DNA from: Bacteroidales bacterium
GTDB taxonomy: Bacteria > Bacteroidota > Bacteroidia > Bacteroidales > Bacteroidaceae
NCBI GenBank assembly: GCA_012517855.1
Contig: JAAYUD010000082.1
Span: 1 to 64,000 of the forward strand
Direction of reading: 5' to 3'
Length of the DNA stretch: 64,000 nt
Shown piece after piece: positions 8,155-38,842 of this stretch. The notes beneath the pieces were generated by a model, which saw nothing but the letters and a program-made list of their open reading frames with translations, was not told where the DNA came from and did not search any database. How positions within the stretch are numbered: the stretch's first letter is position 1; each line of letters begins with the position of its first letter. Position numbers and translations under genes: made by a program.

Positions 8155-9318
8155 TTATTTAAAAAGTGAATAATGTTTGTATACTCTAAATAAAATCAAC
8201 ATCATGATAATACATACGATCATCACAACCGGATATACTGCCAAACTAATGACGTGTGACAAGGTACCTACTATACTATTAATTAGCGTATTCCCTACAA
8301 TACTGATCGTTATGGCCACTCCAAAGGCTGTTCCCAACAACGAAGAGTAATCTTTGCCTACAATGCTGAGTATAATGGGAAATGTTGCCGAGATACCTAT
8401 GCCGACAAGTATCATTCCCAACGCCGCCACCATAAAGTTATGGGCGAACGACAGGCAAATGAAACCGAGCATGGCAACAACAAAGCATGATATCAAAATA
8501 TTGTCTTGCTTCCATTTCTTCAACAACACTGCCAGACACAAACGCGAGACTGTCAATGCAACCACCATACAAGTAAGAGTCTGCAATATCAATCCAGATC
8601 GAATATCGGTAGATTTCTCCAGATACAATGTTGTCCAATTATTGCACGAACCTTCAATACCGCTCTCAAAAAAGAGGATGAAACTCAATATCAAAAGGCT
8701 CTTTTCTTTCAGCAGCCCGACAGCTTTCTTGAAAGGAAAACTCTGGGCATGCTTGGATACGGGGAAGGGAGCATAAAAACACACAACGATACATACCAGC
8801 ATCACCGCCCCTATAAACCGAATGATGGCTCCATAACTATAGTATTCCGATAAAAAGCCTATCAACAAAGGCATGCCTATTGCACCGATACCATAGAAAG
8901 CTCCCAAAAGACTAAGCTTCGAACCGCGTTGTAAATCATCATCGTACAAATCGGCCACCAATGCGTTGGTTTCTCCGTTCAGAACTCCACCTCCCAGACC
9001 TATCATAAAAATAGAAAACTGAAGCAATGGTATATCGAGAAAGAACGAAAGTCCTATCAGCCCCAACAAAACCGAAAAACAACTGAGCAGGAAAAGGACC
9101 TTATAGCCATAATGATCGCAGATAGGACCGAATATCAATGATCCAAGCAAGATACCCAAAGGAAGAAATGCCACCAAGGCCGATGCCTGCAAAGTACTCA
9201 AAAGCATCTTCTCCGTAAGAGATGGCAACACCGAACCGAGCGTAATCATAGATATTCCAAAGAAAGACATTCCGATACACGCGGCTATAAACGAAAACAT
9301 TTTATTGTCAGTATCCAT
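8155..9318 (-). CDS. MFS transporter, probable inner-membrane amino-sugar importer
   Basis: A Major Facilitator Superfamily protein of about 387 aa with roughly 12 hydrophobic segments. The family signature between helices 2 and 3 is seen as GPICDHYGYKVLF. The open frame extends upstream to 9507, but that would overlap the ROK gene by 173 bp and add a non-membrane leader. The start at 9318 (MDTDNKMF) follows a purine-rich AAGAAAAAGAAT; an alternative ATG at 9342 overlaps the ROK stop. It most likely moves GlcNAc, chitobiose or a related sugar from periplasm to cytoplasm for the upstream kinase. The substrate is inferred from neighbours. Confidence 0.8.
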   Translation of the reverse strand: MDTDNKMFSFIAACIGMSFFGISMITLGSVLPSLTEKMLLSTLQASALVAFLPLGILLGSLIFGPICDHYGYKVLFLLSCFSVLLGLIGLSFFLDIPLLQFSIFMIGLGGGVLNGETNALVADLYDDDLQRGSKLSLLGAFYGIGAIGMPLLIGFLSEYYSYGAIIRFIGAVMLVCIVVCFYAPFPVSKHAQSFPFKKAVGLLKEKSLLILSFILFFESGIEGSCNNWTTLYLEKSTDIRSGLILQTLTCMVVALTVSRLCLAVLLKKWKQDNILISCFVVAMLGFICLSFAHNFMVAALGMILVGIGISATFPIILSIVGKDYSSLLGTAFGVAITISIVGNTLINSIVGTLSHVISLAVYPVVMIVCIIMMLILFRVYKHYSLFK

Positions 9319-9334
9319 ATTCTTTTTCTTTTTA

Positions 9335-10300
9335 TTATTCATTTGTCGTATCCGGATGAAGAGCAATATAACCGGCACCCAATAGACCTGCATTGCCCGA
9401 AAGCTTGGACGGAACAAAAGACACTTGTTTAATACTGATGGGTTGAGCCCACTTGCAAGCCTCGGTATAGATGTCGTTAACAAAAATCTTGGCAGGGCCA
9501 AAGACACCTCCGCCCCATACTATCTTTTCGGGATTCAATATACTAACAAGATTCGCTGCCCCCATTCCCCACATCTGTATGGCTTTTCGGATCACCGTTA
9601 TAGCTATCGGATCATTATCCGCATATACATCAAACACATCGTTCGTGGTGATTCTACTGATAGGCATCTGCCTCAACAGGCCTCTATACGTTTTGTTATC
9701 TCTCACGGCATCTCTCGCCCTGCAGCAAATACCGGATCCCGATGCATAATATTCAAAGCAGCCGGCAGCATCATAATCCGACTTATATGGAGGCTCCAAT
9801 GCCATCCATCCCGTCGCACCTATTATATTATCGGCACCATGAAGAGCTCTACCATCTATAATAATCCCTGCGCCGATACCCGTGCCGACAGCTATAAAGA
9901 TCACATTTTTGCATCCCTTGGCGGCACCTTGCCACATTTCGCCATGAACATAGCAAATACGGTCATTGTCGATATATACATTAATATTCGGATTGTCTAT
10001 AGCCGCACGAAGCACTTCCCTAAGAGGATAGTTTTGCCATCCCGGTATGTTGGGAGCCCAAACCCTACCGGTCTGAGGATTGGCATTCCCCGGTACACAA
10101 ACGCCAACGCTCTCTATTTCTATTTTATGGTACTTGGCTTTCATGATTAACCGCTTTAAATTTTCAGCGATCAATTTTCCAACATCGTTACCAACGCGTC
10201 CTTTCAATAAATTACGATGATTGAACATGATTTTACCATCTGCCGACATAATAGCGCTCGCTATTTTCGTTCCACCAATATCAAGTGCAATAACTGCCAT
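9335..10300 (-). CDS. ROK-family sugar kinase, probable GlcNAc-type kinase
   Basis: A 321-aa ROK kinase. It begins with the ATP-binding DIGGTKIASAIM motif. A central VGVCVPGNANPQTG and FIAVGTGIGAGIIIDG follow, then VWGGGVFG near the C-terminus. ROK kinases phosphorylate GlcNAc, ManNAc, glucose or related sugars. The usual zinc cluster CxCGxxGCxE is degenerate here: only GCFE remains after a DYDAA stretch. It is the first gene of the operon, behind a good promoter, and lies opposite nagA, which would use the GlcNAc-6-phosphate product. GlcNAc kinase is the best inference; ManNAc kinase is possible. Confidence 0.8.
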   Translation of the reverse strand: MAVIALDIGGTKIASAIMSADGKIMFNHRNLLKGRVGNDVGKLIAENLKRLIMKAKYHKIEIESVGVCVPGNANPQTGRVWAPNIPGWQNYPLREVLRAAIDNPNINVYIDNDRICYVHGEMWQGAAKGCKNVIFIAVGTGIGAGIIIDGRALHGADNIIGATGWMALEPPYKSDYDAAGCFEYYASGSGICCRARDAVRDNKTYRGLLRQMPISRITTNDVFDVYADNDPIAITVIRKAIQMWGMGAANLVSILNPEKIVWGGGVFGPAKIFVNDIYTEACKWAQPISIKQVSFVPSKLSGNAGLLGAGYIALHPDTTNE

Positions 10301-10391
10301 ATGAGTGTTTTTAAATTAGACTTTTGTTCATTACGGTTAATATGATAAAAGAACTTTCCGAGGGACTCATCTTTTCCCATTATCAATTAGA

Positions 10392-10424
10392 CAAATTTAT
10401 GTATAATATATATTTAGTATCAAA
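10392..10424 (-). promoter_or_regulatory. Bacteroidales promoter for the ROK-MFS-SIS-susCD-GH18 operon
   Basis: On the minus strand, TTTG (10424-10421), 21 nt, then TAAATTTG (10399-10392) match the TTTG and TAnnTTTG consensus. Transcription would start about 85 nt upstream of the ROK ATG. A second -7-like TATATTTG on the minus strand at 10547-10554 lacks a matching -33 element. Confidence 0.65.
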
Positions 10425-10790
10425 TTATCAATTCAGTATTTACACATAAAAATAGTTGTAATGCACTAACAAATTTTAATATCGCAAAGCGGTGCACCTT
10501 TTATCAAGCAATAAATACCTGAATATCAAATACAATACAAATAAAACAAATATAGGCAAGACGTTTCTTTGATGCATATTAACATATAATTAGAGTATAT
10601 GTGCAAACATACAACGTTTAAAAAATATAAATTAACGAATATCATTTATACAACGAAAGGCTTGTGTTTGCACATAAACATACTTGCCCAAAGAACGATA
10701 TTTTAATACAAAACAAATGGATCGATAAAAGTTTCCGACCTTTACTTTCGAGGGCTTTGCCTATAAGGCCTATCGTTTTCATACTGACGA

Positions 10791-10888
10791 TTCATTCGTT
10801 TGGTCGTGAGCATACACATGTTTGGTCACGACCATACACTTGTTTGCTCGTGACCAAACACGTGTTTCGTCGTGAGCAAACGAATGAA
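10791..10888. repeat. 22-bp-step palindromic element B (four tandem units)
   Basis: Four contiguous 22-bp units at 10799-10820, 10821-10842, 10843-10864 and 10865-10886 share at least 13 invariant positions (TTT start, TC at 6-7, GA at 10-11, CA at 13-14, AC at 16-17, TG end). Their semi-palindromic cores are centred at 10806.5, 10828.5, 10850.5 and 10872.5. A second short palindrome, clearest as ACACGTGT at 10858-10865, falls 11 bp off phase. The whole is also a 98-bp imperfect palindrome with perfect 12-bp outer arms (10791-10802 and 10877-10888). No coding function is supported. Confidence 0.85.
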
Positions 10889-11160
10889 AGTAAAGCACAG
10901 CATCAATGAGAGAGCCTTAAGTAACGCATGAAACATATTGATGACAAGAGATTTACATACGCAAGGCTACCATTATCACTTAAATATGTTTTATGCTCAT
11001 ATCGTTTCAATAAAATGACAAACGGATAGGCACACCGAACCAAGAATCATTCTGCACACAATGCTATTCTTTTATATAAAAAACGAGGGATTTTAAACAT
11101 TAAAATGTACTTACTAACTTTAAATATCTTATTATATGCCGTATTAATGATATTTATCAC

Positions 11161-11168
11161 TAATTTTG
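11161..11168 (+). promoter_or_regulatory. Probable -7 box for nagA
   Basis: TAATTTTG matches TAnnTTTG and lies 22 bp before the nagA ATG, giving a short leader. No clear TTTG is found 19-21 bp upstream, so the promoter may depend on an activator. Confidence 0.45.
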
Positions 11169-11190
11169 CAATAATAATAAATCTCCTATT

Positions 11191-12321
11191 ATGAAATATT
11201 TTAGTCTAACAAACGGTTCGGTCATTACAGGCGGAGAGATACTCCAGAATAAAGCGGTGATAGTGAAAAACGATAAAATTGTAGATATTGTTGATCAATG
11301 CTCTTTACCGCATGACATAGAAAAAATAGATTTAGGAGGTAATTATTTAGCACCGGGTTTTATCGACGTACAAGTAAATGGTGCCGGCGGAGCTTTCTTC
11401 GGAGGCGCCCCCACAGCAGACGGACTGGGCATCATGGAGAAAGCATTGCTCAAAGAAGGCACTACCGGATTCCTTGTTACTGCAGCCACCAATAAGTTCG
11501 AGGTTTACAGGCAGATGATACAGTATGCCCATGATCACAGAAAAGAAGCTTTAGGCAATTACCTGGGGCTGCACCTTGAAGGACCGTACATCAACCCCCG
11601 CAGCAAGGGAGCTCATCCTGTCGGCTTAATCAAAAAAGCAACTCTCGACGAAGTAAAGGCTTTGGTCGAATCGGGAGACGGCGAAATACGAGTCATGACC
11701 ATGGCGCCCGAACTGCAACCCGAAGAAGTCATTCGATACTTGGACGCGCAAGGCATTGTTATCTCCATAGGACATAGTGCGCCCACATACGACGAAGCCA
11801 TGCATTTCTTGACAGGACGCAAACGTATGGCAACGCATCTATACAACGGCATGCAACCCATGCATCACCGATACCCGGGGCTTATACCTGCCATATTCCG
11901 CGCTCGCCCTTTTACAGGAATAGTTGTAGACGGAATTCATGTTAGCTACCCGATGGTAAGATTGGCAAAACAAGTACTGGCTGATTCGCTGATGCTTGTC
12001 ACCGATGCAGTAACAACTTGCAAAACGGGAGCGTATCAACATACCCTTCGAAACGATCATTATGTAACAGTAGGAGCCGATGGGAAAGAAACCATATCGG
12101 GCTCGGCTCTCAGTATGCTCAAAGCAGTACAAAACTGCGTGGAGCATGTAGACATATCGCTTGCGGAAGCTGTGAATATGGCATCGCTTTACCCGGCTCA
12201 ATCGATAGGCCTAGCCGACAGAATAGGACAAATAAAGAAAGGCTTTGATGCCGACTTTATTGTTTTCGACAGCAATTTCCAGGTCTGCAAAGTCTGCCTG
12301 AAAGGGACATTTATGTGCTAG
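11191..12321 (+). CDS. nagA: N-acetylglucosamine-6-phosphate deacetylase
   Basis: NagA (376 aa) converts GlcNAc-6-phosphate to glucosamine-6-phosphate plus acetate in the cytoplasm. The amidohydrolase metal site is intact: Glu130 in HLEGPY, His195 in IGHSAPTYDEA and His216 in THLYNGM, with catalytic Asp272 in LVTDAV; His250 lies near the substrate site. Length matches the family. It is divergent from the ROK kinase that should supply its substrate and is followed after 23 bp by a regulator on the same strand. No nagB deaminase is present in the window, so the next step must be encoded elsewhere. Confidence 0.93.
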   Translation: MKYFSLTNGSVITGGEILQNKAVIVKNDKIVDIVDQCSLPHDIEKIDLGGNYLAPGFIDVQVNGAGGAFFGGAPTADGLGIMEKALLKEGTTGFLVTAATNKFEVYRQMIQYAHDHRKEALGNYLGLHLEGPYINPRSKGAHPVGLIKKATLDEVKALVESGDGEIRVMTMAPELQPEEVIRYLDAQGIVISIGHSAPTYDEAMHFLTGRKRMATHLYNGMQPMHHRYPGLIPAIFRARPFTGIVVDGIHVSYPMVRLAKQVLADSLMLVTDAVTTCKTGAYQHTLRNDHYVTVGADGKETISGSALSMLKAVQNCVEHVDISLAEAVNMASLYPAQSIGLADRIGQIKKGFDADFIVFDSNFQVCKVCLKGTFMC

Positions 12322-12344
12322 CAACATATATATTCTAATGTGCC

Positions 12345-15179
12345 ATGAAACAAACTTTTTCCTTCATACTCTTTATCCTTTTCTCGACATCGGCATTCTC
12401 TTCGTCTTTCATGCCGCTTGTACGACACTACTCAGTAAAGGATTATCAGGCTGACAATCAGAATTGGTCTGTTACTCAGGCTCACAATGGAGTAATGTAT
12501 TTCGGCAATTCGGGCGGATTGCTATCTTATGACGGCTATCAATGGAAACTGACAAAAGTTGCCGGAGGACAAATTGCACGCTCGGTATTTGCCGACGGGC
12601 AACGCATCTATGTCGGTTCTTTTGAAGAATTCGGCTATTTCGATACGGATCAATATGGACAATTAAAATACCATTCACTAAGCAGACTACTCAAGAACTG
12701 CCGAATGAGAAACGATGAAATATGGAAGATAGTCAAGGTAGGCAAGTCCATTTGCTTTCAGTCGTTCAGCACATGTTTCTATTATGATGGGAAAACTGTA
12801 AAGGCTTATCGCGATCGGTATTACGATCCACTGTTTCTATTTTCTTGTTTCGGCAAGATGTACGTACAGCTTATCAATAGCGGTTTTTCCATATTCAATG
12901 GACATTCTTATCGCATTGTTATACAGCGGTCTCAACTAAATAATTCGGACGTAGTAGCCGTTTGCCCCTACTACAACAAACTGATGCTGTTGGTTACAAA
13001 AAGCGGGAAAATATATGTCTACAATCCCAACAACAATAAGCTTTCGCCATTCAATACACAAATTGACGGTGACTTGGCAAAAGCGACAGTAAATAGAGCC
13101 TTGCTCACTAAAGACAATCTTTTGATTATCGGTACCATATCCGACGGATTGTATGCCATCCGTAAAGATGGAAGTCTACTGTGGCATTTCAATCGAAGCG
13201 AATCGCTAAGCAACAACACGGTGCTGGGTTTATGTTGCGATGCTAACAATAATATATGGGCAAGCCTGGATGATGGAATTGCCTTCATCGAATACAATTC
13301 TCCTCTGACCTTGCTTACGCCAAAGTACAATCAGCCCCCCATAGGGATGATTTATAGCATACTACATCAAAGCGACAAATTCTATTTAGCGACCAACCAG
13401 GCTTTATATACATTAAATACCAAATCCAACGATTTCAAAATTATTCCCAACTCCAATGGACAGAACTGGTACATTAATGAGTTTGACGGACAGATATTTG
13501 GCGGCAGCAACACCTATTGCACCCATTTAAAGAACGATATTGCCATACCGATCAATCAGACAACGGGCAGTACCTGCATCAAAAAGTGTACGATCAACGG
13601 AAAAGAGATATTGCTCAATTCAACTTATGCCGGGCTCGAAGTATTCGTAAAAAACAGCTCGAAGCAATGGCTATGGAGCCATAACATAACAGGATTTTCC
13701 AATCCCATCAGGCATTTTGAGGTTGATACGGATGGTTCCATTTGGCTCACCCATATGTATAAAGGCGCCTATCATTTGTGGTTGACAGATAATCTTCGGG
13801 CCGTTCGATATGCCAAGTACTTCGACACTCTGAATGGTACGGACGAAGGGCATATCCATGTGATGAAAATTCAAGGGGACATTGTCTTATCCAATGAACA
13901 ATCGGCTTATGTTTATTCGAACATCAAACACGCCCTCGTTCCGTTTACGCAACTCAACAAACTACTCCCCGAGCCGAATAATATATTGGGAGCCGCAGAG
14001 GTAAATGGTCACCTCTTTTGGCTAATCACCTCCAAAGGATATGTATTGGTAGATGGTTACGAAGGCCAGTTCCGAATCAAAGCTTATATACCCTTTTCCA
14101 AGTTCGATAGCTCGATACACAACGAAAGTTCGGTATTCGTAGATAAAGAGGGCAACTCTTATTTCAATCTGAACAACGGTTTCGCTCATTATGACTTAAA
14201 AAACAGAGACAATAGCCCGAAACTATTTAAAATGAGTATCGAACAAATAGAATGCTTCAACAATAAAAGAGAATCTATTTTCCTTCCAATCAATAAAGAT
14301 GGGGAAGTAAGCTTTTCATATAGGGAAGTTTCTTTCAGGTTGCTTATGCCCCATTACGATCTCACTCCCTACATGATACACTACTCTATAAAAGGAAGTG
14401 GGCTCAATTTGGAAACCGACTCTTACGACCCCGTGATGCACTACGGAAACTTAGATTATGGCACATACGACTTTTCGGCGGTAATATACAACGATCTGAA
14501 TCAGAAGATTGGAGAGGTGAATTATCATTTCATCATAAACCGCCCGTTCTACCTCTCATGGTTGGCCATCTGTTTTTACATCATTCTGCTTGGTACAGCT
14601 ATCTATTACATCAGCAGATGGAGACTGCACCATTTGATGAAAAAAGAAAAAGAGGCCTACGAAATAGAGCAATCCAAACAGAAACTAAAAATGCACGAAC
14701 AAGAATTGCTCATCGCCGAACAAAACAAAAAGCTTTTGGAGTCCGAGATATCACTCAAAAGTAAAGACTTGGCGAGTATGGCAATGGGTATTATAGCCAA
14801 GAACAATATGCTCGAAGAACTCCGGTCTATGATTCAAGAGCAATTGAATAAGGGTACGACGACAAACAAATTTATGAAACAACTACTCATCAAAATAAGT
14901 GAAGACATAGAGAACAAAGAATTTTGGGAGTTGTTTCAGCAGAACTTCGATTTGATACATGCCAATTTCTTCCGCCATCTACGCGAAAGGTACCCCGAAC
15001 TTACGCCAACCGATCTCCGCTTCTGTGCATTGCTTCGTCTGAATCTCACAACAAAAGATATTGCACAGATAAACAATTTAACGGTTCGAGGAGTCGAAGC
15101 TGCCCGATATAGGATTCGCAAAAAGCTAAACATTGCTGAAGAAGACAGCTTGGTCGACTTCTTGATCGACCTGGTATAA
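12345..15179 (+). CDS. Membrane-spanning beta-propeller/Y_Y_Y sensor with LuxR-like HTH
   Basis: A 944-aa one-component sensor-regulator. It has a signal peptide (about 1-20), then a long periplasmic region of propeller-like repeats (NNIWASLDDGIAFIEYN, DGSIWLTHM) and a Y_Y_Y-type domain (about 655-730). A membrane helix follows (about 735-757), then a coiled coil (about 760-810) and a C-terminal HTH (about 886-928, PTDLRFCALLRLNLTTKDIA and VRGVEAARYRIRKKL). There is no histidine-kinase or receiver domain, unlike hybrid two-component polysaccharide sensors. It probably senses a glycan in the periplasm and acts on DNA from the membrane. It could serve the chitin locus behind nagA or the adjacent susC locus 211 bp downstream. 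Confidence 0.8.
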   Translation: MKQTFSFILFILFSTSAFSSSFMPLVRHYSVKDYQADNQNWSVTQAHNGVMYFGNSGGLLSYDGYQWKLTKVAGGQIARSVFADGQRIYVGSFEEFGYFDTDQYGQLKYHSLSRLLKNCRMRNDEIWKIVKVGKSICFQSFSTCFYYDGKTVKAYRDRYYDPLFLFSCFGKMYVQLINSGFSIFNGHSYRIVIQRSQLNNSDVVAVCPYYNKLMLLVTKSGKIYVYNPNNNKLSPFNTQIDGDLAKATVNRALLTKDNLLIIGTISDGLYAIRKDGSLLWHFNRSESLSNNTVLGLCCDANNNIWASLDDGIAFIEYNSPLTLLTPKYNQPPIGMIYSILHQSDKFYLATNQALYTLNTKSNDFKIIPNSNGQNWYINEFDGQIFGGSNTYCTHLKNDIAIPINQTTGSTCIKKCTINGKEILLNSTYAGLEVFVKNSSKQWLWSHNITGFSNPIRHFEVDTDGSIWLTHMYKGAYHLWLTDNLRAVRYAKYFDTLNGTDEGHIHVMKIQGDIVLSNEQSAYVYSNIKHALVPFTQLNKLLPEPNNILGAAEVNGHLFWLITSKGYVLVDGYEGQFRIKAYIPFSKFDSSIHNESSVFVDKEGNSYFNLNNGFAHYDLKNRDNSPKLFKMSIEQIECFNNKRESIFLPINKDGEVSFSYREVSFRLLMPHYDLTPYMIHYSIKGSGLNLETDSYDPVMHYGNLDYGTYDFSAVIYNDLNQKIGEVNYHFIINRPFYLSWLAICFYIILLGTAIYYISRWRLHHLMKKEKEAYEIEQSKQKLKMHEQELLIAEQNKKLLESEISLKSKDLASMAMGIIAKNNMLEELRSMIQEQLNKGTTTNKFMKQLLIKISEDIENKEFWELFQQNFDLIHANFFRHLRERYPELTPTDLRFCALLRLNLTTKDIAQINNLTVRGVEAARYRIRKKLNIAEEDSLVDFLIDLV

Positions 15180-26677: not shown

Positions 26678-27155
26678 GCACACCCCATTGACATAGAAAC
26701 ACGCTAATCAATAGGTGGTTATCCACAAGTCGTTTTTCAGAACATTTCTGAGGGTGAATATCGAGGACGATACTGATACTATTTTAACCATATCGAAGTG
26801 GCACTTATTGATACACAAAATAGAACCTGCGTCTTCAAAAAATGATAAGGACAAACATAAAAATTCATAAGGACGAAACCAAAAGTTTGTCCTTATAAAC
26901 TTTTAGTTTCGTCCTTATGAATTTCTCGCTAGATATCAGTGACTTACGCACGATATATTTATATCTCGCTCTTATTGAACTTACATTCGATCACTGAAAC
27001 AGTATCGGAAATAGTGCCTCAAAAGGGCTTGTAACTGATGTTCGGATAAGAAAGTATCAGAATGTCGGTGAATGTTCACCTTGAAATACGTTCCGAAAAA
27101 TGGATTACACGTAACGTGTTGCATCACAGTTTATTTCTATGTCAATGGGGTGTGC
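26678..27155. repeat. Perfect 22-bp inverted repeat flanking a 434-bp segment
   Basis: The arms at 26678-26699 and 27134-27155 are exact reverse complements, beginning GCACACCCCATTG on the left. Matching resumes outside after a one-base bulge. The enclosed segment encodes no transposase. It could be a MITE-like remnant or the ends of a lost insertion sequence. No convincing target-site duplication was seen. Confidence 0.65.
26845..26932. repeat. 22-bp-step element C with interleaved complementary units
   Basis: Cores ATAAGGAC (26845, 26867) and their complements GTCCTTAT (26889, 26911) start exactly 22 bp apart. Unit 1 (26845-26856) is complementary over 12 bp to unit 3 (26885-26896). Unit 2 (26861-26879) is complementary over 19 bp to unit 4 (26906-26924). 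The pairings cross, giving a pseudoknot-like order 1-2-1'-2'. It lies in a gene-free stretch and is not part of an ORF. Confidence 0.85.
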
Positions 27156-37052: not shown

Positions 37053-37982
37053 ATGGAAGTTATCCGTTTTTCATCTGCAACTTTACATCCCATCTGCGCA
37101 GCGACTATCGGTTTCTTTGATGGAGTGCATCGCGGACATCAGTACTTGATAGATCGTGTCAGAGCTGTTGCCAAACGAGAGAACTGCCGTTCGGCTGTAA
37201 TCACTTTTCCCGCTCCTCCCCAGCAAATAATAAATCCGGCATTCAAAGCACAACTTATCAGTACTTATGAAGAGAAAATTGAGATGCTTTCGGAAAAAGG
37301 TATTGACGAATGTATCATTCTGGATTTTAATAAAGAACTGTCGAGCCTTTCGGCAAAGCAATTTATGAACGACATACTCAAAGAGCAATTTAATGTCGCC
37401 CATTTAATTGTAGGATACGACCATCGTTTCGGACACGATAGACGTGAAGGCTATAATGACTATGTACGTTATGGAGAAGAAATAGGAATAAGCGTAGAAG
37501 CCGTACCTGCTTTCGAATGGCACGACCGTATCATTAGTTCTTCGGCAATACGCCAGTTGTTATACAAAGGTAATATTGAAGAGGCGAACGATGCACTAGG
37601 ATACTCCTATTATATAAAAGGGGAGGTTATAAAAGGACACCAAATGGGTAGAAAGATGGGATTCCCAACAGCCAACATTGCCCTAAACAGCGACGAGAAA
37701 ATTGTGCCGAAAGCAGGAGTCTATGCCGTCAGAGTTCATTCCAAAGGAGAAACCTATGGTGGAATGCTTAATATAGGCCATCGACCCACTCTTGATAACG
37801 GCAATGACACAAGCATAGAAGCACATATTCTCGACTTCGACAAAGATATTTATGGCTGTCCGATCTGTATTTCGTTCATTAAATATATACGAAAAGAACA
37901 AAAGTTCCCGTCTATCGCAGCCTTAATACAACAATTGAATATTGATAAAGAGACAATAGAAAAGATACTTGAAAATGATTGA
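37053..37982 (+). CDS. ribF: Bifunctional riboflavin kinase/FAD synthetase
   Basis: A 309-aa RibF enzyme that makes FMN from riboflavin and FAD from FMN. The N-terminal nucleotidyltransferase domain shows GFFDGVHRGHQYLID and the ISSSAIRQLL segment. The C-terminal flavokinase domain has GRKMGFPTANI and GVYAVRVH. Length is normal for the family. It is the last gene of the plus-strand run, and no FMN riboswitch is visible upstream. Confidence 0.93.
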   Translation: MEVIRFSSATLHPICAATIGFFDGVHRGHQYLIDRVRAVAKRENCRSAVITFPAPPQQIINPAFKAQLISTYEEKIEMLSEKGIDECIILDFNKELSSLSAKQFMNDILKEQFNVAHLIVGYDHRFGHDRREGYNDYVRYGEEIGISVEAVPAFEWHDRIISSSAIRQLLYKGNIEEANDALGYSYYIKGEVIKGHQMGRKMGFPTANIALNSDEKIVPKAGVYAVRVHSKGETYGGMLNIGHRPTLDNGNDTSIEAHILDFDKDIYGCPICISFIKYIRKEQKFPSIAALIQQLNIDKETIEKILEND

Positions 37983-38172
37983 TTAACCAAACGGGGAATC
38001 ATATTGCAATTTGCGCACTCTACATTCGACATCTCTGCCACGGTGGTCAATGCGCTGCCTAAAATGCTTTTAAACGCTTCGTGATATCTTTCTAAAAGGA
38101 TGAAGTCTGTGAGACATACTGACGAAAGTTGGTTCACCTCAGAGAGGTTTTATCTCTTTGTCCCGAGAAGAA

Positions 38173-38268
38173 TGTCGTTCCACATATGTGAGTTGATCGA
38201 ATCACATATGTGAGTCGATCGTTCCATATATGTGATTCGATCAACTCACATATGTGGAACGACAAAAC
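38173..38268. repeat. 22-bp-step palindromic element D (92-bp near-perfect palindrome)
   Basis: Perfect 37-bp arms (38173-38209 and 38228-38264) flank an 18-nt centre. The arms are made of CACATATGTG-like cores starting at 38181, 38203, 38225 and 38247, exactly 22 bp apart. GATC-centred secondary cores lie 11 bp off phase at 38196.5, 38218.5 and 38240.5. The structure alternates two short palindromes every 11 bp. It could form a long cruciform or RNA hairpin. No function is known to me. Confidence 0.9.
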
Positions 38269-38509
38269 CTTAATGAGCCAACAGAAATACCTTAAATACG
38301 ACAATCCTGATTCAATAAGATGTGTACAAAAAACCTTCTCTCAGAAAAGAGCCGGATCACTTCCATGCACGGGCAGTGAGCAAAGAAGTCATTACCTACA
38401 AGCAATTAAAAATGAGTTGAAAGGAGTTTCGGCACGGTGCACACACCACAGATGCCGGATGATGACTTAATCGGTTGATATACGAAGTGGGCGATCCAAG
38501 TTTCATAAT

Positions 38510-38596
38510 ACGTTATCAGTAAGCAAGATAACGTCATTTCGAGGTCCCAAAAACAAGTCACACCTGTATATGTTATTCATAGTCAACAAGATAACA
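38510..38596. repeat. Pair of related hairpins in the ribF-comF gap
   Basis: ACGTTATC (38510-38517) pairs with GATAACGT (38527-38534). About 60 bp later TGTTAT (38571) pairs with ATAACA (38591-38596), both right arms following CAAG. The two look like diverged copies of one structure, possibly a terminator pair for the convergent genes. Confidence 0.45.
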
Positions 38597-38842
38597 TGAC
38601 GGATACTTCAGCAACAATAAAAAACAACAGAACTGCCATCACCTGAATAATTCATACTTGAGCCGACATAAGAAGAAAGGTAAAAGCGATTCAAATACAA
38701 TAAGTGGGTGGTAATGATGGCGTTATTGCCCCTTTATCATTGTGACAGCAATGCCTCAGCGTCCGAAATATGTTTAGAAATAGGATAAGCTTTTATTCTA
38801 ATGAACTATCGGGAGCAGAAATATCATTAAAGCTATAACCTT

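Follow-up and report, generated by a model that had tools for sequence, protein, structure and literature searches.

The palindromic array at positions 10791–10888 of the window (the whole stretch of 64,000 nucleotides analysed here) is a member of a small family of non-coding repeats scattered through intergenic DNA. The family is one of several, unrelated in sequence, which have in common an architecture: dyads or inverted units, about four per array, set at a 22-bp step within a palindrome of ~84–98 bp. Across both families and genera it is the step, and not the sequence, that is kept. The best explanation for these observations, to which we assign a probability of about 0.45, is a dispersed repeat family within a geometry-defined class whose 22-bp step reflects same-face binding by a putative dimeric protein.

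Structure and copies of the focal array

The focal array (no strand assigned) was delimited by reading of the sequence, an inverted-repeat search, TRF and a detector which combines palindrome and period in a single score and is blind to sequence. It is a 98-bp imperfect palindrome of four units, each comprising an 18-bp dyad and a 4-bp spacer at a spacing of exactly 22 bp. The dyads were read from the sequence as GTTTGGTCGTGAGCATAC (10798–10815), GTTTGGTCACGACCATAC (10820–10837), GTTTGCTCGTGACCAAAC (10842–10859) and GTTTCGTCGTGAGCAAAC (10864–10881), none with an assigned strand. The 12-bp outer arms, read likewise as TTCATTCGTTTG (10791–10802, + strand) and CAAACGAATGAA (10877–10888, − strand), are perfect, and the array is bounded by TTCATTCG and CGAATGAA. 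The inverted-repeat search returned arms at 10791–10838 and 10841–10888 (48 nt, 81% complementary, 2 nt apart), while TRF gave a period of 22, 3.5 copies and a score of 100, its highest among 25 rows for the window. Counted by hand, 13 of the 22 columns are identical across all four units (12 when the units are cut one base earlier). The first-pass annotation had described a four-unit palindrome of 98 bp with perfect 12-bp outer arms and at least 13 of 22 positions shared; all of this is borne out, and it was right to read the element as structured and phased. The detector score is 84, compared with best scores of 47–54 in each of 20 Markov-1 windows of 64 kb. Rfam models searched against the focal site (9000–12500) produced no match up to E 1. 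A perfect 10-bp inverted repeat, CTTTACTTTC / GAAAGTAAAG, flanks the array (10740–10749 and 10886–10895); inspection of the other copies by eye did not show it there.

The window is contig C32 of a 3.64-Mb assembly in 114 contigs. BLAST against this genome located three more copies of the focal array, with four units at C66:35294 and five each at C55:14996 and C27:55250, and the detector found a fourth, more diverged relative on C9 (L069), whose cores include GCTG..CAGC and GGTG..CACC. The focal family therefore has five located copies of 4–5 units in its own genome. The first-pass annotation had named isolation, with no relatives elsewhere in the genome, as the result that would refute it, and these copies show the opposite. 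The copies do not have common flanks: the BLAST matches stay within 32–153 of the 200-base query, and the left boundary TTCATTCG recurs in two of the three other BLAST copies but is altered in C55. The focal sequence is absent from 100 relatives and 117 other phylum-sample genomes, and has no match in plasmid or phage collections. No target-site duplication was seen by eye at four focal-family copies, and no empty site was found for this family. A search of the genome for an autonomous element with the same ends, using the array as query, returned arrays only. The 12-bp outer arms could act as terminal inverted repeats, yet they run on as part of the array.

The 22-bp step within and beyond the genome

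Twenty stretches of ~20 kb, chosen without regard to arrays, were sampled from the same genome (399 kb, or 463 kb with the window). The detector requires both palindrome and period, so its counts concern the joint signature; hits were filtered for an open frame of <150 aa and at least 25 distinct trinucleotides, and ten of the dropped hits had a period of 22. All 16 non-coding palindromic arrays in the 463 kb have a period of exactly 22 (3/3 in the window and 13/13 in the sample). They fall by eye into about seven unrelated sequence families, and in the stretches sampled one array of this architecture occurs per ~31 kb. When periods of 15–31 were scanned in the window, all three strong hits lay at 22, with only a shadow of one at 18. 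Long palindromes sought with the period condition removed numbered 22 in the non-coding part of the 463 kb; 15 showed a clear period, which was 22 in every case. Adjacent-unit lags were 22 in 35 of 36 assignable pairs, a tally that counted three spurious focal-family units; the half-site tests below use the 22 real ones.

The window holds two other arrays, both located by the detector and without an assigned strand. The second array (38173–38264) lies between convergent genes and has the 22-bp architecture in an unrelated sequence with CACATATGTG dyads. Around it is a dispersed non-coding repeat of roughly 780 bp (family 2; 37933–38720, ends approximate, no strand assigned) present at about 37 places in the genome. 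The third array (26839–26924) is built of AAGGACGAAA units, two forward then two inverted, and is palindromic only overall, without local dyads. It sits in the middle of a MITE-like element (family 3; 26678–27155, no strand assigned) found at no fewer than 40 places, whose perfect 22-bp terminal inverted repeats, of CACACCCCATTGACATAGAAAC type, occupy 26678–26699 and 27134–27155. In both families the array belongs to the most conserved portions of the repeat. Columns of the family-2 array average 0.77–0.92 compared with 0.2–0.9 in the flanks, and the family-3 array matches its own inverse at 81–94%, with whole-element identity to other copies mostly 74–83%. We checked 22 family-2 copies for block order: five are without the full array and one is without recognised blocks, and among the remaining 16 the inner blocks can face either way with respect to the flanks. 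Four arrays are of type A> B> <A and one is A> <B <A, as against two of type <A B> A> and two of type <A <B A>. The array of this ~780-bp repeat is where many contigs of the assembly stop, and the arrays therefore break assembly. At 38.2 kb, Rfam gave matches of miRNA type; these fall below gathering scores and reflect the long hairpin.

Outside this genome, 64 of 83 adjacent-unit lags were 22, nine were 21 and six were 23. Non-coding hits had a period of 22 in 5/5 cases among stretches from the same family (20 stretches, 17 genomes) and in 7/9 cases in three complete genomes of that family. At TypA loci, taken as the best 80 of 588 and belonging mostly to Bacteroides, Phocaeicola and other Bacteroidales, the figure was 17/27, and a further four hits had a period of 21 and two a period of 23; no hit arose in a Markov-2 null of these loci. 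Taken together, these sets from other Bacteroidaceae genera give 29/41 hits at 22 and six more at 21 or 23. Among other families of the class the figure was 1/5 (L210). The TypA protein of the window's genome has 85% identity to Bacteroides, the top value among those best 80 of 588 loci, and the genome is therefore that of a Bacteroides relative. No array hits were obtained in 200 kb of one E. coli genome (K-12), nor in a second phylum-sample set of 331 kb and unspecified kinship, in which three of the 20 stretches (L341, L345 and L351) had a G+C of 0.00 and were probably read as N. Two stretches held clusters of repeats. One, from a Bacteroidaceae MAG (L183), has six period-22 arrays of a single GC-rich type in 18 kb, five of which the filter removed; the other (L238, genome G007) has several period-14 CAATTGTC/GACAATTG clusters, a tandem palindromic repeat with a different step.

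Array turnover and candidate mechanisms

In Bacteroides caecigallinarum, orthologous sites often retain an array in which the cores have been replaced and the spacer letters vary. Three genomes of this species were compared (G308, G309 and G310, of which G309 is ET12). An array carried by An496 (L155) is lacking between the same flanks in ET12 (L163), where the junction is clean, and An428a (L276) also carries an array at this site, as judged by comparing the flanks by eye. Elsewhere in ET12, the family of this array is found at about 20 places. When orthologous sites of G309 were compared with those of G308 or G310, 11 of 17 comparisons had an array no more than 150 bp from where it was expected, using a score threshold of ≥25 of 36 (control maximum 22 in 102 windows); two further comparisons were without a usable flank hit and are outside the 17. 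In one of the six array-less comparisons (L260 vs L292) another 22-bp palindromic array with different stems was seen nearby by eye. Cores at occupied sites often differ, for instance CTTTGT/ACAAAG in G309 as against TGCGCA and GACGCA in G310 and G308. Exact ACAGTT cores number 8 in G308, 0 in G309 and 2 in G310, and RRR cores 11, 53 and 15, respectively (Fisher's test on the two counts, 6e-6 for G308 v G309 and 0.056 for G310 v G309).

Across 22 aligned three-unit arrays from this species, the stems AAAAYG/CRTTTT are conserved while the cores and spacers are variable. The 44 spacers comprise 25 distinct sequences, near random at the two middle positions and always 4 in length. Most of the aligned arrays had been selected for a 22/22 spacing, found at 18 of the 20 loci that were fetched; the exceptions are L271, with one step of 23, and L276, which did not chain. 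Covariation between the arms is not above permutation (318/500 shuffles reach the value), and the spacers do not pair across the palindrome (194/500). The cores of units 1 and 3, in contrast, are complementary far above shuffles (0/500 reach the value), as would be expected either of pairing in a hairpin or of correction by template switching. For the focal family, matches at the variable core positions number 54/66 within the unit and 38/60 across the palindrome, and half-site matching is not above within-array shuffles (1232/2000 reach the value).

The preferred mechanism is same-face dimer binding. Twenty-two bp (21–23 in relatives) corresponds to two helical turns, so that a DNA-binding protein acting as a dimer would meet every unit on the same side of the helix, and adjacent dimers might co-operate along the array. 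We favour this mechanism, with moderate confidence, because it would call for just such a step of two turns in which the spacer letters are free. The binding protein would most likely maintain, spread or pack the repeats genome-wide rather than regulate the GlcNAc genes, and an effect of the array on its flanking genes, if any, would be incidental. The explanation as a whole draws on the unrelated loci without common flanks, the constant step, the arrays kept at orthologous sites, the core types that differ between sister genomes, the clean empty site at L163 compared with L155, the better matching within units than across the palindrome in the focal family and the lack of a G.U bias. Against the dimer reading stand the complementarity of the unit 1 and unit 3 cores in B. 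caecigallinarum, where the arms do not covary above shuffles, the half-site matching of the focal family, which is no better than in shuffles, the lack of local dyads in family 3, an excellent RNA fold, and the mild enrichment of convergent contexts and of adjoining A or T runs, both given below. The unit 1 and unit 3 cores and family 3 are real difficulties, and because of them we still weigh a role as a hairpin and an origin by mutation alone. A broader proposal is that a class of intergenic elements found mainly in Bacteroidaceae inherits geometry and not sequence: each genome would have several unrelated types of palindromic array at the two-turn step, cores would be swapped at fixed sites between sister species, and putative reader proteins would change their DNA specificity fast, along with the arrays. 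We consider this conceivable, though on balance improbable.

A role in RNA is a rather doubtful alternative, but the strongest of them. Here, the transcribed array would form a long stem-loop acting as a terminator, an RNase III site or a transcript stabiliser, and 22 bp would represent two turns of the A-form. The focal array has a predicted fold of −51.5 kcal/mol (z −8.4) as RNA, and −30.3 (z −6.4) as DNA, and complementary cores are kept in units 1 and 3 in B. caecigallinarum. Several copies in that species end in T runs (for example L260, L266 and L268), so that this family looks like a set of two-way terminators. Convergent contexts are also somewhat enriched. Of 51 arrays, 45 could be placed, with 17 in co-directional, 15 in convergent and 13 in divergent contexts, against background length shares of 0.51, 0.19 and 0.30 (overall p 0.04); the arrays therefore do not seek promoters, and show a mild excess at gene ends. 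Other observations disfavour an RNA role. Neither the focal array nor family 2 has an A or T tract at its ends, the focal array is flanked by divergent genes, spacers do not pair across the palindrome in the B. caecigallinarum arrays as described above, and there is no strand bias towards G.U over A.C mismatches (126 vs 110, dispersion 1.2, in 47 palindromes). Moreover, a hairpin by itself needs no fixed internal step of 22 bp. Termination was rejected for the focal copy: no T run longer than 1 stands at its end, so that the hairpin is not followed by the T run of an intrinsic terminator. Runs of at least five A or T adjoin 12 of 52 arrays, as opposed to 2 of 52 control positions, a set of arrays which does not include the focal one.

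A neutral origin, which we judge unlikely, would have quasi-palindromes arise and become homogenised through template switching at hairpins and duplication of units, and scatter in a MITE-like manner, the step being functionless. Whole-array inversions relative to the flanks in family 2, presence and absence at an orthologous site (L155 vs L163) and the occurrence of arrays in all gene orientations are consistent with this origin. It is harder to reconcile with a single exact step shared by unrelated sequences that differ greatly in base composition, with a spacer length that is near-constant while the letters vary freely, and with arrays that rank among the most conserved stretches of the family-2 repeat.

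The site of the focal array invites a local reading, which we regard as very unlikely, namely that it provides sites for a GlcNAc-responsive regulator of the two adjacent genes. The array lies between divergent genes encoding a ROK-family protein of sugar kinase type (9335–10300, − strand; PF00480) and a NagA-type amidohydrolase (11191–12321, + strand; PF22643 and PF01979), at 490 bp from the start codon of the former (10300) and 302 bp from that of the latter (11191), these distances being counted to start codons and not to mapped promoters. An operator would suit this divergent intergenic position, as well as phased sites with dyad symmetry, but nothing beyond position speaks for a cis-regulatory role at the GlcNAc locus. 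The sister copies adjoin a RodA-like gene, an HU-like gene and a tRNA (named by eye, with no search), and a role specific to the nag or chitin/GlcNAc locus is not supported because of these unrelated neighbours. The recurrence of the architecture throughout the sampled stretches, and the absence of the focal sequence from the relatives and the wider phylum sample, also count against a local operator. A metabolic regulon was rejected in turn, as the neighbours of the focal-family copies share nothing visible. The first-pass annotation had suggested that the element could influence expression at this locus or simply be tolerated there; of these, toleration fits best, while the copies beside unrelated genes weigh against the former. 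Arrays near tRNA genes, identified by eye, were seen at four loci in B. caecigallinarum and the window's genome (L269, L274, L277 and L044). The NagA-type protein was matched in 52 of 151 family genomes with a best non-self identity of 32%, and so has no close relative among them and is too diverged for an empty-site comparison; a scan of genome contigs with NagA for syntenic loci gave 49 pattern stretches, of which none is a relative. Lastly, chance or an isolated tandem duplication with no relatives elsewhere in the genome, for which no point in favour was found, is refuted by the Markov nulls and by the three BLAST copies and diverged fourth, and its probability is negligible.

If the step that we attribute to same-face dimer binding is indeed a protein-binding ruler, then Bacteroidaceae genomes could each carry on the order of a hundred phased platforms; the 13 arrays in 399 kb sampled extrapolate to about 120 for the window's own genome. 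No name was found for a factor that would use them. Similarity searches miss these arrays because the rule is geometric, and a spacing-based search finds them in genera without a common array sequence. This raises the testable question of what holds 22 bp constant while the letters change.

Relation to known repeats

No description of 22-bp palindromic arrays in Bacteroidaceae was found in titles and abstracts, a body of text which mostly excludes the subscription journals. Several known systems are comparable in part. REP/BIME and REPIN-RAYT elements are short, palindromic, intergenic dispersed repeats of a conserved sequence type associated with a Y1 transposase. The arrays described here are likewise short, palindromic, intergenic and dispersed, but the window's genome has no Y1-type (RAYT) transposase (0 matches to PF01797, with control matches in 5/14 genomes), and a RAYT hypothesis was rejected on this basis. 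Correia-type MITEs are fold-back intergenic elements of about 100–150 bp and resemble the focal array in this respect, but they have conserved terminal repeats and no internal 22-bp step. The ends of Tn7 and Mu are phased arrays of 22-bp transposase sites, a spacing of two helical turns. The tandem 22-bp sites are a point of likeness, as are the two forward and two inverted units of family 3. The focal array, however, has no transposase gene next to it, and within one genome the step is common to several unrelated sequences.

Porphyromonas gingivalis belongs to the order Bacteroidales, as does the window's genome. Its BrickBuilt MITE, built of 23-bp bricks, is the closest described relative (PMC4596501). 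BrickBuilt is an intergenic element of 19 copies with tandem units that lack spacers and are predicted to form long stem-loops; the 23-nt unit has one consensus and reaches up to 22.8 copies, between a leader and a tail with IS5-type terminal repeats (PMC4596501). Some copies are without leader or tail, gaps in draft assemblies fall at copies, and the element is described there as having no BLASTn match outside the species (PMC4596501). Copies are also mentioned in a report on reassembled P. gingivalis genomes (PMC5771137). Set beside BrickBuilt, the arrays here differ in having a 22-bp step, mostly three to five units and many unrelated sequences. The focal copy, with a period of exactly 22 in place of the 23-nt unit, differs also in being without a leader, a tail or separate terminal repeats. 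The likeness is nonetheless considerable: the focal array is multi-copy and intergenic throughout, as BrickBuilt is, and families 2 and 3 of the window also carry their array inside a longer repeat. We therefore read the focal element as a dispersed intergenic repeat of the BrickBuilt/MITE-like kind.
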